From: a virus
IMG/VR virus record: IMGVR_UViG_3300023103_000006
Coordinates: 1 to 53,175 of that record
DNA: 53,175 bases
Strand: one strand, 5' to 3'
In this document: one piece after another, positions 8,923 through 41,816 of the stretch
Layout of the letters: every line of letters starts with the position of its first letter
How positions within the stretch are numbered: the stretch's first letter is position 1
Notes under the pieces: model-generated
Told to the model about the DNA's origin: nothing
What the model saw: only the letters and a program-made list of their open reading frames with translations
Database searches by the model: none
Program-made: the position numbers and the translations under genes

Positions 8923-11410
8923 CAATCCAATAAGATTTTATAAACTTGACGATTCAGAAGACCGTTACAAAAACTACCATGAGCCTAGAGATATGCGCAG
9001 AGGAGTATTAACGCAAAAACAAGGAGAAACAATTAAATTCTTTGCACCTAAATCTGATTTTGAGGGAATAGATATTAGAACTTTGCAAGTAGGACTATAT
9101 GGTGAAGCGTTTGAAGATTGTGTAAGTTTGGGCTATCAATTATTAGAAGATAATATAGGATTTCTAAGAGAACAACAGTCACGATTCTATTATGAAATGG
9201 TGATTAAGGTCAATAACGCGCCCTCGACTACTTGGAAACAGTTTTCCTTATTACGACCAAACGGACAGCAATTATTCGGAACCTATACAGGACAAGAAAC
9301 AGATTTAGAAACCTACATAAATAATTTAAAAGATTGGCTAGAAGCGTACCCACACACACGGGTTGATGCCTACAAAGAAGGAAACCTAATAAGATTAAGG
9401 GTTTGGGAGTCTGGCAATTTTATAATCAGGAATGAAGAAATAACAGTAGGATTGGGTACGGTATCAGTATTGAACGAGAATAGTCCGACATTGCAAAGAG
9501 GTGCTAAAACTACTTACAACAGACCTGCTTATAATACTTACGACTTAGTAATTGGCAGCGATGTAACCGAAGGCAATATTTTTACTTTAGGTGATGTGAC
9601 TTATACCGCAACCAAGGCAGATACAGCAGCAACGGTAAAAGCTGCCCTACTTGGCAATAATTCAAAGGTAGTTATTAATGTAGGAGATATAATACCAATA
9701 AACGCATCAGTAGGAACTGTAAGAACTGTAAACACGAATAACCCGACTATAAACGACCTTTACAATGATTTGCTGAGCGGAAACGACCGATATATAATAG
9801 AGATAGAGAACGTTCAAAAAGGAAATACATTCCAGGTTCTTAGAAGTGGATTAAGTCCCTTAACTATTAAGGCAAGCGAAACTGACACTAAAGCAACTAT
9901 TGAAGCATTTTTTAATTCAACTGGTGGCTTCTTGGTAGTACCTGCCGGAACAATACTAACAGTAAGCGCAGTTCCTGGCGTTAGAATTGACGACAACACA
10001 AATTCGCCTAGTATCAGTACTGCAAATGCCGTATTAACCCCGGCACAAATGACGGACAGGTGGAGAATATTTGTCGGAACAAGCGTAAGAAAGAATAATA
10101 AGTTCGTATTAGGTGATATTGAAGTAATAGCAGACGAAGACGATACCTATTTAACCATTGCCACAAAGTTAGGTCTAATTGACGGATTGTATTATGAAAT
10201 AGAGGAGGATGGCGTATTTAGTTCTTATGCAGAACGAGGGGAATTGTATGATGATGAAAATATTGCAGATATTCAGATTATATCTTCACCGATTAGACGA
10301 ATATCTCAACAATACCTATGCGAAGTGACTATGCCAGCAGGATACACCGGAAAGGCTCTACAAATAGCAGTTAGCGAGTATTCAAGAAATGACGAAGAAC
10401 AAACTTGGATATTCATTAGAACGGTTGTAGTTTCTAACTACATAAGAATAGAGGTAGACCCAAAAGAAACAGTAATGGTGCGATGTTCTTCATTAGGTGA
10501 AGCGTTTGGATTTGAGTATTTTGAGCAAGGAATTAATCAGCAAATGAGATTCCCTATTTACCTGAGAAATGACGGATACGAAACAACCTTAACTAAATCA
10601 CAAAGCGTAAACGATGCTACAGTAAACGGGAATACGCAACTCAGACCAATTTCTGACTTTCAGGTTTTAGGTTATCCTAGTTGGTTTCACAAATCACTGC
10701 AAACATGGCTTAGAAGCGATGTTGTGATGGTTGATGAAATGAAAATATCATTGATTAATTATGAAGTAAGTGAAGACGTTGGAGCCAAAAAAATACAATC
10801 AGCCAATGGTAGTTTGTATAAAGAAATCGGCATAATGAAGAATTACGGGAAATTATTTCTGGATTATGACAATTTTCAAGAAAAAGTTTCTGTAATAACC
10901 AACTTTAAGAGTAAAATAATTTGTGTTATCCTAAAAAATGACTTATTTTGTCAGGAAGTATTCGAAAGAGGAGAAATATTTATTCCGGTTGGCGAATACA
11001 GATGGAAAGCATGGGTAGGCGGAGCAGTAGGAGATACGGTGGACATGAGAATCTACCAGAATGGAACAAGGATTCATCACGTAACCATGTATTGTGGCAG
11101 AATGAATATGCTAGACTCTTTAATCAGGGTTTACACACACGACGAGTTGTTATTTGAAGAGGTAAGTCAGGAAAACATGACCATTGTAGGTATAGATACG
11201 AAGACCGAAACAACAGTTGCTTATGAAAGTGTAGACTATGCAGACGAAATAGGGGACTACGATAAATTGAATGGATATGTAGCACCATTTGTGCCACCAG
11301 CAGAAACAAATGCCGGACAATGGAGGGATAGAATAGACGAAGACACTAATCTATCGATTGAACAAAATACAGACGAAACGGGTTGGGTACTTAAATCAAT
11401 AATATCATAA
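8909..11410 (+). CDS. Putative tail-tip / receptor-binding protein with three tandem beta domains
   Basis: The protein has 833 residues and belongs to the distal tail module. Three related domains of about 75-90 residues lie in tandem, starting near residues 209, 292 and 381. Each opens with a strand ending in V(T/Q/R)xxNxF, continues with I/V-x-A-x-x-x-D-T-x-x-T(I/V), and the first two end with an Asn-Ser/Asn-Pro turn. The C-terminal half is strand-rich and ends with an A-G-x-W-R-x-R...W-x-x-K-x-x-I-S motif that reappears in the 62-residue protein encoded next. Repeated beta domains suggest a role in surface binding. I do not recognise a named family. Confidence 0.6.
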   Translation: MRLFDNPIRFYKLDDSEDRYKNYHEPRDMRRGVLTQKQGETIKFFAPKSDFEGIDIRTLQVGLYGEAFEDCVSLGYQLLEDNIGFLREQQSRFYYEMVIKVNNAPSTTWKQFSLLRPNGQQLFGTYTGQETDLETYINNLKDWLEAYPHTRVDAYKEGNLIRLRVWESGNFIIRNEEITVGLGTVSVLNENSPTLQRGAKTTYNRPAYNTYDLVIGSDVTEGNIFTLGDVTYTATKADTAATVKAALLGNNSKVVINVGDIIPINASVGTVRTVNTNNPTINDLYNDLLSGNDRYIIEIENVQKGNTFQVLRSGLSPLTIKASETDTKATIEAFFNSTGGFLVVPAGTILTVSAVPGVRIDDNTNSPSISTANAVLTPAQMTDRWRIFVGTSVRKNNKFVLGDIEVIADEDDTYLTIATKLGLIDGLYYEIEEDGVFSSYAERGELYDDENIADIQIISSPIRRISQQYLCEVTMPAGYTGKALQIAVSEYSRNDEEQTWIFIRTVVVSNYIRIEVDPKETVMVRCSSLGEAFGFEYFEQGINQQMRFPIYLRNDGYETTLTKSQSVNDATVNGNTQLRPISDFQVLGYPSWFHKSLQTWLRSDVVMVDEMKISLINYEVSEDVGAKKIQSANGSLYKEIGIMKNYGKLFLDYDNFQEKVSVITNFKSKIICVILKNDLFCQEVFERGEIFIPVGEYRWKAWVGGAVGDTVDMRIYQNGTRIHHVTMYCGRMNMLDSLIRVYTHDELLFEEVSQENMTIVGIDTKTETTVAYESVDYADEIGDYDKLNGYVAPFVPPAETNAGQWRDRIDEDTNLSIEQNTDETGWVLKSIIS

Positions 11411-24320: not shown

Positions 24321-24329
24321 ACACAAAAT

Positions 24330-24361
24330 CCGCTTAGTAGCGGACTTGTGGGTTAACCCAA
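24330..24361. terminator. Two adjacent hairpins; possible terminator for leftward transcription
   Basis: A 6-bp stem, TCCGCT-TAGT-AGCGGA (24330-24345), is followed by a perfect 12-base palindrome, TGGGTTAACCCA (24350-24361). Read leftward, the first stem is followed by TTTTGTG, giving a weak intrinsic terminator for the leftward cluster ending at 24896. Read rightward there is no U run, so late transcripts could pass into the 24460 gene. Confidence 0.45.
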
Positions 24362-24396
24362 AAACTAAAACTGATATTTCCCTATCGAATCCAAAC

Positions 24397-24434
24397 CACC
24401 TTTAATCCAACTGAGAAGTGGGGTTTAAAAGGTG
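24397..24434 (+). other. Imperfect hairpin in leader of the spanin-like gene
   Basis: CACCTTTAA-T-CC pairs with GG-TTTAAAAGGTG across a 12-base loop, with a one-base bulge. It ends 25 bases before the ATG at 24460 and may influence translation or processing of that mRNA. No promoter of the usual form is evident between here and the endolysin gene. Confidence 0.4.
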
Positions 24435-24459
24435 AAAACAAATATAAACAAAAAATCTT

Positions 24460-29370: not shown

Positions 29371-29570
29371 AGTTTTTTATTTTTAATGTCTTCTAATGCA
29401 CAATCAATAATTACGTGAGTACCCGTGCCTAATAGGGTAAAACCTACGGCAAGCCTTTCTGCTAAAGCATCCTCTGTACTTTCTCTTTCCACTATACCCC
29501 AATGCTTGCCTTTAGCTTTGAAAATGATTCTTACATCTTCTATGTCGTCTATTTCAAAAGGTTGTGTCAT
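29367..29570 (-). CDS. Small protein, unknown
   Basis: The protein has 67 residues with an alternating strand-helix-strand pattern (VRIIFKAKGKHWGIVE, DALAERLAVGFTLLG, HVIIDCALEDI), compatible with a small alpha/beta fold. It is coupled by four-base overlaps at both ends. No motif is diagnostic. Confidence 0.65.
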   Translation of the reverse strand: MTQPFEIDDIEDVRIIFKAKGKHWGIVERESTEDALAERLAVGFTLLGTGTHVIIDCALEDIKNKKL

Positions 29571-30070
29571 GATTTCCTTTCATTTAAGCACTCTTCAACC
29601 ACGCTAGAAACTGCCAATGTCATTTTAGCTTTAAATGAAGCATCTTGTTTTAGCTCATTTACAACTTTGTCGAATAAGCTATCGCTACTTGAAAGCATTG
29701 AACGAGATACTTTGTGAGAAAAGGCATTAATAACAGATTGTTTAAAATCATCGGTATTGATTACCTTCGTAAAGCTGTCAGAAATAATTTGCCTTAACGA
29801 TGTAGTGTTTTCGTCAACTACTGAAATTATTAACTTATTTAGCGGGCTTTGATAGCCAGTAAGTACAGTTTTCATGGCTTCTGCTATGGATTGTTGCGCT
29901 GTAATTAGAATATCTTTTTCGAGATAAACAGGGTTATGCTTTTTTTGAATACCTTCATTCAGTTCTTTTACTGATTTGTCAGTAAACCTTTCTAGGTTTT
30001 GGTTTTTGTCTTGTAGGTCACGAACTGTTTTCTTTAGTTCGTCGAACTCGTGCTGTTCTTGTTTTGTCAT
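29567..30070 (-). CDS. Helical protein headed by structured leader element 1, unknown
   Basis: Starting at the ATG at 30070 gives 167 residues; a longer reading begins at 30136 but would translate through the leader RNA structure and is rejected. The protein is predominantly helical with a coiled-coil start (residues 1-45, EFDELKKTVRDLQDKNQNLE) and Ser-rich helices later (HKVSRSMLSSSDSLFDKVV). It is the first gene of the leftward cluster, just downstream of leader element 1, so it and the following genes would be controlled by that leader. Function unknown. Confidence 0.7.
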   Translation of the reverse strand: MTKQEQHEFDELKKTVRDLQDKNQNLERFTDKSVKELNEGIQKKHNPVYLEKDILITAQQSIAEAMKTVLTGYQSPLNKLIISVVDENTTSLRQIISDSFTKVINTDDFKQSVINAFSHKVSRSMLSSSDSLFDKVVNELKQDASFKAKMTLAVSSVVEECLNERKS

Positions 30071-30081
30071 TGATGTAAAAT

Positions 30082-30198
30082 AAAAAATTCCTTGATTGGG
30101 GCTTGGACTTAGCAGGGGTGGATTAGACCCGTCCAAACTTTCCTATCAAGGAATTTCTCTAATATCTTTAAATCCGTTCGGCTGCTAAACCGTTGAAC
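30082..30198 (-). promoter_or_regulatory. Structured leader RNA, element 1 (pseudoknot type)
   Basis: On the leftward transcript, a hairpin (arms within 30176-30198, inner CGG/CCG) presents the loop TTTAGCAG (30189-30182). Its TTAGCAG is perfectly complementary to CTGCTAA (30115-30109), which lies as a seven-base strand between two stacked stems: TTGGAC/GTCCAA (136-131 with 108-103) and GGGT/ACCC (130-127 with 119-116). All of this is enclosed by a perfect 12-bp stem (30145-30156 with 30085-30096) that runs into TTTTTTATTTT, 12 bases before the ATG. The outer stem plus U run could act as a terminator; the loop pairing would modulate it. Architecture parallels elements 2 and 3. Confidence 0.7.
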
Positions 30199-30228
30199 AA
30201 ATATAGTAGTCATATTTTGAATTTCCAA
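30198..30228 (-). promoter_or_regulatory. Leftward promoter of early cluster
   Basis: Read leftward: TTG (30228-30226), 20 bases, TATATTTG (30205-30198). This fits the Bacteroidota -33/-7 consensus. The same TTG-N20-TATATTT geometry precedes leader elements 2 and 3. It overlaps the rightward promoter of the gene at 30250. Confidence 0.8.
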
Positions 30229-30245
30229 GAATTATTTTAACTTTG
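30216..30245 (+). promoter_or_regulatory. Rightward promoter of membrane-protein operon
   Basis: TTTG (30216-30219), 18 bases, TAACTTTG (30238-30245). The ATG at 30250 lies only four bases further on, so the message would be leaderless or nearly so. The element faces and overlaps the leftward promoter, so the two probably compete. Confidence 0.65.
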
Positions 30246-33309: not shown

Positions 33310-33639
33310 TTAATTGGAGTTTTTAGGGTGAAAATAATGTATGTCGTCCGTCCATTCGTACGGAATTTTTATTTCATTTAAACAATTTTGTCCCCTATTC
33401 AATATTTCTCCCTTTTCCTTATCGCTGTAATCGATAATCTTATTTTTATCAACTCCGCCAAGCGAAGAGTAGCAGTTGTAAAAATAAATCCCTAAACTTT
33501 CACATTTTTTATACGCTTTCCTTAGTTCTTCAAAAGCCATTTTCTGCTTTGGAGTTAAACAAAATAATTCATCTTGTTCTGTCAATTCTTCTTTTTTAAG
33601 ATTGTCAAATTTTTTCTGCGCAAAATATTCTTTCTCCAT
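33310..33639 (-). CDS. First gene after structured leader element 2, unknown
   Basis: This 109-residue charged helical protein (KKFDNLKKEELTEQDELF, TPKQKMAFEELRKAYKKCE) ends in a region with Tyr, Trp and His (IPYEWTDDIHYFHPKN). Its ATG lies 13 bases after the U run of a terminator hairpin, so its expression should depend on leader element 2. No family recognised. Confidence 0.7.
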   Translation of the reverse strand: MEKEYFAQKKFDNLKKEELTEQDELFCLTPKQKMAFEELRKAYKKCESLGIYFYNCYSSLGGVDKNKIIDYSDKEKGEILNRGQNCLNEIKIPYEWTDDIHYFHPKNSN

Positions 33640-33651
33640 ATTAATATAAAA

Positions 33652-33752
33652 TAAAAAAGCCTTTACAAAATAAAGGCGACTACTCCCTTACTCATAAAGG
33701 CTGTGGTATGTTAATACCAAAATCTTTTCTTACAGGTAGTCGTTTCTGTAAG
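33652..33752 (-). promoter_or_regulatory. Structured leader RNA, element 2 (kissing loop with competing terminator)
   Basis: On the leftward transcript: hairpin P1, CTTACAG/CTGTAAG (33752-33746 with 33735-33729), has a loop containing CGACTAC. That loop is perfectly complementary to GTAGTCG (33683-33677), which sits in the loop of P3 (CCTT/AAGG). P3 is enclosed by P2, AGCCTTTA (33702-33695) with TAAAGGCT (33665-33658). A small hairpin, GGTAT/ATACC, lies between (33705-33718). The same downstream TAAAGGC can pair instead with a nearer GCCTTTA to make an intrinsic terminator (33659-33677) followed by TTTTTTATTTT. The two folds exclude each other, as in a transcription attenuator or riboswitch. 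Confidence 0.75.
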
Positions 33753-33761
33753 TATTGAACA

Positions 33762-33792
33762 CAAATATACTAAAAAACTACTTAACTTTCAA
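33762..33792 (-). promoter_or_regulatory. Leftward promoter before leader element 2
   Basis: Read leftward: TTG (33792-33790), 20 bases, TATATTTG (33769-33762). The -33 part overlaps the 3' end of the small gene at 33778-33930. Geometry is identical to the promoters of elements 1 and 3. Confidence 0.8.
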
Positions 33793-39876: not shown

Positions 39877-39900
39877 TTGTTAATAACTAAATTTCTACTG

Positions 39901-39932
39901 CAAATATAGTAAAATATAATTCATAACTACAA
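39901..39932 (-). promoter_or_regulatory. Leftward promoter of primase operon
   Basis: Read leftward: TTG (39932-39930), 21 bases, TATATTTG (39908-39901). The leader is only 24 bases before the ATG at 39876 and shows no structure, unlike the three structured leaders. Confidence 0.75.
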
Positions 39933-40182
39933 ACAATTTGAATAATATTTTTTCGCAACACGCAACGCAACACATACCCCTATATACTACTGTGTAGAAA
40001 AAAAAGATTATTTTATTTGTACCCCCATCATTTTTTTAGAAAACAATGTGTTGCTACGTTGCGTATAAGTAAAAAGTAGCTCTAAATCAATGTATATAAA
40101 AGAATTTTCAAAAACACATATACAAATAAAGTGTTGCGCTGCAACAGATTAAAGTGTTGCGTAAATATTTTTATTCAAACCG

Positions 40183-40213
40183 TTTGTAGATGTAGTTTTT
40201 ATTATTATCTTTA
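40183..40213 (+). promoter_or_regulatory. Rightward promoter of SSB-like operon with palindrome
   Basis: TTTG (40183-40186), 19 bases, TATCTTTA (40206-40213). A hairpin or operator palindrome, TACTCA-ATAA-TGAGTA (40216-40231), lies directly downstream near the expected transcription start, and could bind a repressor. Confidence 0.75.
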
Positions 40214-40268
40214 CATACTCAATAATGAGTAATCATGCCAATATACGGCACTTAACAAATTCAATATC

Positions 40269-40973: not shown

Positions 40974-41426
40974 ATGGAACAAAATATTGAGAAGATAGAT
41001 TTTAAAAATTTATCTAAAGAATCTCTTTTGTGTTTGGTTGATGCAAACCTTCAATTATGGGCTGATAATGGTCAGGACAAACTAGGTTTTCATGCTATTA
41101 TTTGTAAAGCTGAATTATTTTTTAGCGAGCTGAAGAAAAAATTAGCTAAAACCTTGATTGATGAATTGGCGAAAAATAATAATTCTACGCATAATGGCGT
41201 AGTATTGTCTCTGTCAAATGGTAGTTCTTACGATTACTCAAACAGCCCGGCATGGATTGAAGTGAATGGAAGAATTGAGGTGATTAAAGAAGATTTAAAA
41301 GCTATTGAAGCGATAGCAAAAGTAACTAAAACCAGGAGTGAATGGACAGACAAAGACGGTGAATGTTATGTTATTTATCCGGCAGTATCAAAAAGCGCAG
41401 AAACGGTAAAGGCTACAATTAAGTAG
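40974..41426 (+). CDS. Protein co-encoded with SSB-like protein, unknown
   Basis: The protein has 150 residues, mostly helical (FHAIICKAELFFSELKKKLAK) with a strand-rich, Ser-rich middle (GVVLSLSNGSSYDYS). A KVTKTRSEWTDKDGE segment lies near the end. It follows a terminator-like hairpin and ends eight bases into the convergent gene. A role in recombination or replication is likely from context, but no motif proves it. Confidence 0.6.
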   Translation: MEQNIEKIDFKNLSKESLLCLVDANLQLWADNGQDKLGFHAIICKAELFFSELKKKLAKTLIDELAKNNNSTHNGVVLSLSNGSSYDYSNSPAWIEVNGRIEVIKEDLKAIEAIAKVTKTRSEWTDKDGECYVIYPAVSKSAETVKATIK

Positions 41427-41664
41427 CGTTTAAATCTCTTTTAGTTACTAATTTGTACAAACTTTTAAGTTCTTCTACTGTTTCTATACGGATATTATCA
41501 GAACCATAATACCATGAGCCTGCAACAAATCCATGTTCTGTAACTTTGCAAATACTTATACCTAATTTAACATCGTGTTTAACATAACTTACCCAATCTT
41601 TAGTGCCAGTTCTGCAAGGCGTAAACCCATAAACTGTAATATTATCTTCGGTTAATTTTTCCAT
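41419..41664 (-). CDS. First gene after structured leader element 3, unknown
   Basis: The protein has 81 residues. Strands and turns with Trp and Tyr (YGFTPCRTGTKDWVSYVKH, GFVAGSWYYGSDNIRI) are followed by a C-terminal helix. Its own leader contains structured element 3. The gene ends eight bases inside the convergent rightward gene. No family recognised. Confidence 0.7.
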   Translation of the reverse strand: MEKLTEDNITVYGFTPCRTGTKDWVSYVKHDVKLGISICKVTEHGFVAGSWYYGSDNIRIETVEELKSLYKLVTKRDLNAT

Positions 41665-41679
41665 TTTAGATAGTTTTAA

Positions 41680-41771
41680 AATAATAATGCCCCAAATACC
41701 TGCTTAGCTTCTGACGTCTAAACAAAATAGATGAGGCAAAAATCTTAATGGCAGTATAGTCAGAAGTGCCA
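41680..41771 (-). promoter_or_regulatory. Structured leader RNA, element 3 (kissing loop)
   Basis: On the leftward transcript: P1, TGGCA/TGCCA (41771-41767 with 41753-41749), has a 13-base loop starting CTTCTGAC (41766-41759). This is perfectly complementary over eight bases to GTCAGAAG (41715-41708), which lies in the loop of P3, TTTAG/CTAAG (41722-41718 with 41707-41703). P3 is enclosed by P2, TGCCTC/GGGGCA (41738-41733 with 41693-41688, one G-U). TTATTATTTTA follows. No U-rich terminator competes as clearly as in element 2. Order and pairing match elements 1 and 2 although the sequences differ. Confidence 0.7.
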
Positions 41772-41776
41772 ATGAT

Positions 41777-41807
41777 TAAATATAGTAAGAAATTATGTAA
41801 AAAGCAA
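41777..41807 (-). promoter_or_regulatory. Leftward promoter before leader element 3
   Basis: Read leftward: TTG (41807-41805), 20 bases, TATATTTA (41784-41777). It lies between the methyltransferase gene ending at 41817 and leader element 3, and gives the 81-residue gene its own transcript. Confidence 0.75.
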
Positions 41808-41816
41808 GTTATAGTA

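Follow-up and report, generated by a model that had tools for sequence, protein, structure and literature searches.

A structured RNA appears to separate a promoter from the first gene of a leftward operon in a virus, which raises the question of whether this locus encodes a functional leader and, if so, what such a leader would do for the gene behind it. The locus lies in a stretch of 53,175 nucleotides (IMG/VR record IMGVR_UViG_3300023103_000006), hereafter called the window. The original prediction described it as a functional RNA leader (element 1) that shares its pairing architecture with a second site in the window (element 2), and held that this pairing is conserved in the absence of sequence conservation. 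To our knowledge, little has been established about how Bacteroidetes phages time their early genes.

Architecture of element 1

Element 1 is read 5' to 3' on the minus strand of the window, and it is there that the promoter, the TTAGCAG loop, its CTGCTAA complement, the stacked stems, the 12-bp outer stem, the U run and the ATG of the original prediction were all located (Table 1). Elements 2 and 3, as well as relatives from other phages, have the same promoter arrangement. The leader proper consists of a weak 5' hairpin (H1) and a long second hairpin (H2), and the strand complementary to the H1 loop sits inside H2 between the GGGT/ACCC stem and the 3' strand of the TTGGAC/GTCCAA stem. If the U run pairs, the outer stem of H2 extends from 12 to 15 bp. 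The 167-aa protein encoded downstream has no relatives in IMG/VR or among GenBank phages, and its weak matches to Csm3 and HAD proteins are below the cut-off or low scoring.

Table 1. Positions of the three leaders of the window and of their parts.
Element	Feature	Position	Strand	Sequence, detail and basis
1	Promoter, Bacteroidetes-type	30198-30228	-	TTGGAAATTCAAAATATGACTACTATATTTG at 30228-30198, beginning TTGG; -33 TTG at 30228-30226, -7 TATATTTG at 30205-30198; pattern scan
1	5' hairpin H1, weak	30179-30192	-	CGG TTTAGCAG CCG; minimum free energy (MFE) fold, sequence
1	Kissing/pseudoknot 5' strand	30182-30188	-	TTAGCAG; exact complement of 30109-30115
1	Linker motif	30161-30168	-	AAGATATT, one mismatch to family consensus AAAATATT; 8-mer search
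1	H2 outer stem, 5' strand	30145-30159	-	Perfect 12 bp at 30145-30156, up to 15 bp; AAATTCCTTGAT at 30156-30145
1	H2 outer stem, 3' strand	30082-30096	-	ATCAAGGAATTT at 30096-30085, pairing with AAATTCCTTGAT; MFE fold
1	Inner H2 stem	30136-30131 / 30108-30103	-	TTGGAC/GTCCAA; sequence
1	Hairpin stem within H2	30130-30127 / 30119-30116	-	GGGT/ACCC; sequence
1	Kissing/pseudoknot 3' strand, inside H2	30109-30115	-	CTGCTAA; complementarity
1	U run	30077-30087	-	TTTTTTATTTT, base of H2, just 5' of the start codon; sequence
1	Downstream CDS	29567-30070	-	167 aa, ATG at 30070; first gene of leftward operon
2	Whole element	33658-33792	-	
2	Promoter	33792-33762	-	
2	H1	33752-33729	-	
2	Kissing strands	33742-33736 / 33683-33677	-	
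2	Outer stem	33702-33691 / 33669-33658	-	
2	Downstream CDS	33310-33639		
3	Whole element	41688-41784	-	
3	-7 box	41784-41777	-	
3	H1	41771-41749	-	
3	Kissing strands	41766-41759 / 41715-41708	-	CTTCTGAC / GTCAGAAG, 8-bp clamp
3	Outer stem	41738-41732 / 41694-41688	-	
3	Downstream CDS	41419-41664		

Folding and chance controls

The whole of element 1 folds with an MFE of -40.4 kcal/mol, compared with a mean of -24.3 kcal/mol for dinucleotide shuffles (z = -4.27, 0 of 200 as stable). Its core reaches z = -4.87 on the minus strand versus -2.17 on the plus strand, and a function on the plus strand was rejected because of this less pronounced score and because the plus-strand gene near element 1 has its own promoter (30217-30245) and almost no leader. 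The outer stem and the complementarity to the 5' strand jointly scored as high in none of 1000 whole-leader shuffles, whereas the 7-nt complementarity by itself recurred in 38 of 1000 shuffles of the 5' part. Thus, element 1 stands beyond chance as a combination and not through its 7-mer alone. Two refuting outcomes had been set beforehand, and neither occurred: shuffled controls did not reproduce the fold together with the complementarity, and related leaders do exist in other phages. These results support a functional RNA leader whose pairing architecture is common to element 2. The observed architecture of element 1 is confirmed as real.

In the pseudoknot-free MFE structure, H1 pairs part of TTAGCAG, so that two weak H1 pairs must open for the kissing helix to form; the isolated helix amounts to -9.2 kcal/mol with loop penalties left out. 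Judged by sequence as an intrinsic terminator, element 1 offers a stem followed by TTTTTTATTTT, but the base of the stem is A-U rich and a simple terminator scan omits the element.

Other leaders and sites in the window

Scanning the window for ATG starts of open frames with non-coding DNA upstream yielded three clear leaders (30070-30197, 33640-33761 and 41665-41776), all on the minus strand and with TATATTTG/A promoters. The original prediction is corrected here on two further points, the assignment of the RNA to the minus strand and the presence of the third of these leaders (element 3, approximately 41688-41784). The fold scores are z = -4.85 for element 2 and z = -2.14 for element 3 relative to shuffles. 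In a pattern scan of the window, other minus-strand promoters with short leaders (e.g., at 39936 and 47164) lacked the structure.

Within element 2, minus-strand positions 33677-33659 hold a second terminator-like hairpin, which is compact (GCCTTTA-TTTTG-TAAAGGC-TTTTTT) and mutually exclusive with the long H2 of the element, and the two could possibly form a switch pair. No mutually exclusive antiterminator fold is evident across the leader family, an obvious alternative hairpin being present only in element 2. For element 3, a comparison is available with the closest relative of the window (L084; terminase 91% identical), which has a short direct junction where the window carries the promoter, leader and 81-aa gene of element 3 (41419-41816). 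This difference fits a putative inserted cassette of promoter, leader and gene.

Two further sites were observed in the window. The minus strand at 24326-24438 has a TATATTTG promoter and, downstream of it, first a hairpin with the stem CACCTTT/AAAGGTG and then a second, terminator-like one (CCGCTACTAAGCGG). Beyond these lies nothing but the end of a plus-strand gene, and this region is a candidate stand-alone small RNA. A 392-base intergenic stretch (39877-40268) adjoining the primase operon contains many GCAACAC/GTGTTGC repeats in both orientations, and is possibly a replication origin or an operator array.

A family of leaders in other phages

A promoter-to-ATG scan of 2.9 Mb of phage DNA covered 190 distinct intergenic promoter-leaders, 14 of which scored at least 30, compared with 0.73 expected from shuffles (maximum 2). 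Approximately 18 leaders with distinct sequences, a set selected in part by complementarity, are found mostly in uncultured Bacteroidetes-type phages and also in Cellulophaga phage phi19:1, and they precede primases, HNH endonucleases and orphan genes. New members from the scan include L026 (with a 10-bp clamp), L060, L067, L087 and, from a phage in culture, Cellulophaga phage phi19:1 (L085:10361). In phi19:1 the leader spans approximately 10361-10452 and belongs to gene gp030. The leader of L067 precedes a NUMOD4/HNH_3 endonuclease according to Pfam; the protein behind the L060 leader has no Pfam match, and from its sequence we read it as a probable HNH endonuclease. Most relatives are uncultured contigs that carry no host label, and we infer Bacteroidetes as the host group from the promoter type and from the Cellulophaga and Flavobacterium isolates among the primase and protein matches.

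As a check on selection bias, leaders were chosen anew on the basis of a promoter, an AAAATATT-like linker and an H2, ignoring complementarity. Among these 82 leaders, which include overlapping promoter choices and near-duplicates, 21 have a complement of at least 7 nt between the 5' part and the interior of H2, versus 2.06 expected (maximum 7). Element 1 has all the family features: the promoter, a 5' complement of at least 7 nt to the H2 loop, an H2 near the ATG, and the linker.

Across the family, the clamp helix is 7-10 nt long; its 5' strand falls in the first 4-19 nt behind the -7 box, and its 3' strand occupies an apical or internal loop of H2. The distance from the end of H2 to the ATG is 9-23 nt in most leaders; those of phi19:1 and L087 lie 43-59 nt from the ATG. 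U runs of at least 5 at the base of H2 are present in 11 of the 18 leaders versus approximately 14% of other leaders, and the remaining 7 would consequently be poor terminators. The view that pairing is kept without sequence conservation holds for the architecture, which persists while the paired sequences change, but has to be qualified for the AAAATATT(A) linker, which lies between the two complementary strands and recurs with at most one mismatch in 15 of the 18 leaders (the best 8-mer in shuffled sets averages 7.5, maximum 10). Its recurrence argues for common descent or for a shared need in binding or packing.

HNH genes with non-coding upstream regions have a leader in 12 of 43 distinct regions, compared with 1.1 expected from shuffles, and those directly behind another reading frame have one in 3 of 58. 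Between sister HNH leaders, the two strands of the clamp have changed in a compensatory manner, for example GTCGGAG/CTCCGAC versus GTCGGAC/GTCCGAC and GTGAGACG/CGTCTCAC versus GTGAGACA/TGTCTCAC. No such leader was found at HNH relatives in bacterial genome contigs. At L200 (approximately 1350-1478) and L206 (upstream of 1501), HNH genes lie behind a larger RNA in which CCGCTAGTAACGG is accompanied by a clamp (GCATGAT/ATCATGC) and a terminator-like stem rich in G and C; this RNA may be a relative of the present leaders from phages that infect other hosts.

Covariation in the primase leaders

With the primase of the window as query, 180 IMG/VR relatives and MW202828 were retrieved. In one primase clade, the promoter is followed by ATGGCGC at the extreme 5' end and then by a hairpin with GCGCCAT in its loop; in the sister clade, the clamp positions are instead occupied by GATGCAGT and ACTGCATC. 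The outer stem of these orthologous leaders has standard pairs in 98.7% of cells and double changes in 6 of 12 pairs, which provides the compensatory changes in related phages that the original prediction had called for. Its covariation score is 0.41, compared with 0.16 for shuffles and at most 0.18 for slid controls; it should be noted that these figures describe the primase leaders, as the gene downstream of element 1 offers no orthologue with which covariation in its own clamp could be tested.

The primase leaders also contain an invariant CCGAGTA...GAAAGG, which looks like a putative AGUA/GAA bulged-G internal loop. An AGTA...GAA loop resembling the bulged-G (loop E) motif is common to primase and HNH leaders (L004:4283, L075:3838, L195 and L226). 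A search with a covariance model built on the AGTA/GAA subfamily (R1) returned, in the loci that it covered, nothing beyond the primase leaders.

Proposed mechanism and alternatives

Translation initiation in Bacteroidetes proceeds without Shine-Dalgarno pairing. In Flavobacterium, initiation is favoured by low structure from -20 to +20 and by A-rich positions -12/-13 (PMC6847099), so that a U run before the AUG is unusual and terminator-like. Based on the sequence features, we propose that transcription would start a few bases upstream of the 5' hairpin and that the 5' end of the emerging RNA would clamp onto the H2 loop. H2 would be placed to act as an intrinsic terminator through its U run, to block ribosomes from the AUG, or both, given an AUG that in these hosts would depend on an unstructured start region and not on Shine-Dalgarno pairing. 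The clamp would set the amount of transcription or translation that enters the gene, and the leader could serve as a self-contained expression-control cassette for orphan, replication and free-standing HNH endonuclease genes. The reading that we favour would thus make the leader part attenuator and part start-site gate; within it, the transcription start, the kissing in vivo, termination, and the direction and trigger of regulation are what we infer.

Promoter-like boxes, fold, complementarity, covariation, recurrence and placement are what the sequences of the family show. We put at about even the chance that element 1 is a cis-acting structured mRNA leader and a member of the family, in which the 5' clamp on the H2 loop controls read-through or start-codon access. 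For the family as a whole, we consider it rather probable that these are widespread, undescribed phage leaders in which a terminator-like hairpin at the start codon is engaged through its loop by the 5' end of the transcript, in a kissing interaction, and that such promoter-leader cassettes travel with orphan, replication and homing-endonuclease genes in non-Shine-Dalgarno hosts.

A close rival arises from the several members that lack a good U run: the leader might be a module that protects the 5' end and stabilises the mRNA, or promotes translation, with no role in termination. The clamp would bury the 5' end and block 5'-end-dependent decay while leaving the AU-rich start open, which is consistent with a paired strand only 4-19 nt behind the -7 box, with an architecture that survives complete change of the paired sequences, and with an H2 that usually stops 9-23 nt before the AUG and leaves the immediate start region open. 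This reading does not explain why U runs are so enriched at the base of H2, where Flavobacterium starts favour A, and we regard the protective role as possible but tentative. A further alternative is a stable small RNA acting in trans, with its 3' end formed by the terminator-like hairpin and its 5' end guarded by the clamp; transcription would get to the gene by read-through. In its favour, promoter, compact fold and U run make up a complete small-RNA gene in approximately 11 of the 18 leaders. We think this unlikely: it does not account for the constant placement immediately before an ATG, and no conserved unpaired seed was found in the leaders besides the AU-rich linker.

A riboswitch-like element or a protein-binding autogenous operator might use the kissing fold to sense a molecule of the host or the phage. 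This reading could draw on the one subfamily with an invariant AGUA/GAA internal loop like the bulged-G motif, which could be a binding site. However, most members, element 1 included, lack this loop, and the downstream genes are unrelated to each other; as for the conserved aptamer nucleotides of a small-molecule riboswitch, the members share only the AU-rich linker, with AGTA/GAA confined to a subset. An operator of this kind is therefore quite improbable. Least credible of all is an ordinary terminator with chance complementarity in AT-rich intergenic DNA, which we hold to be very improbable: although the 7-nt match of element 1 alone turns up in approximately 4% of shuffles of the 5' part, the family-level null distributions, the covariation and the common linker speak against it.

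Comparison with known systems

Searches of Rfam 15 at the gathering threshold found no family in the window and only tRNAs in two relatives, and the sub-threshold matches at relaxed thresholds are chance-like. No description of such leaders was found in the open-access literature. Pistol and HDV-like ribozymes resemble the present leaders in that one of their loops, or their 5' strand, forms pairs inside a segment that a different stem closes off. Their strand order and conserved cores differ from those of the leader, and pistol, HDV-like and hammerhead ribozymes were rejected by inspection for strand order and missing cores. Type III toxin-antitoxin (ToxIN-like) RNAs likewise place a pseudoknotted RNA and a terminator-like hairpin between promoter and gene; this assignment was also rejected, as there are no tandem repeats and no ToxN/CptN/TenpN-type toxin family downstream, and the downstream genes are unrelated.

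In the leader of the IncI-alpha/IncB plasmid rep gene, a pseudoknot is formed by long-range pairing between a loop near the 5' end and a strand just upstream of the regulated gene. The leaders described here differ in their genes, hosts and sequences, and neither an antisense RNA nor a leader peptide was seen in them. Comparable in placement are the T4-type homing endonuclease genes (I-TevI, segB and mobE), in which regulatory hairpins cover the ribosome-binding site or lie immediately 5' of it, and seg43(25) of Aeromonas phage 25, with a hairpin just upstream of that site (PMC2988022). In both groups, a stable hairpin sits immediately before the start of a phage endonuclease gene, and both have a connection to expression control of mobile phage genes. 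The T4 hairpins, however, arise on longer early transcripts by pairing with the Shine-Dalgarno site, and a 5' clamp is not described for them in the review (PMC2988022), whereas the present H2 contains no Shine-Dalgarno site, precedes a start that has none, and in most leaders ends 9-23 nt before the ATG. Unlike the T4-type hairpins, the present leaders have their own promoter and a 5' kissing helix of 7-10 bp, and they also precede primases and orphan genes.

The leader family is probably a gene-control switch that has not been described before. With exchangeable clamp sequences in a fixed architecture, it offers a regulatory device that can be tested directly, and Cellulophaga phi19:1, a phage in culture, has one. 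The device may be mobile together with cassettes and homing endonucleases, and the leader may be of use in locating promoters and true gene starts when uncultured phages are annotated.
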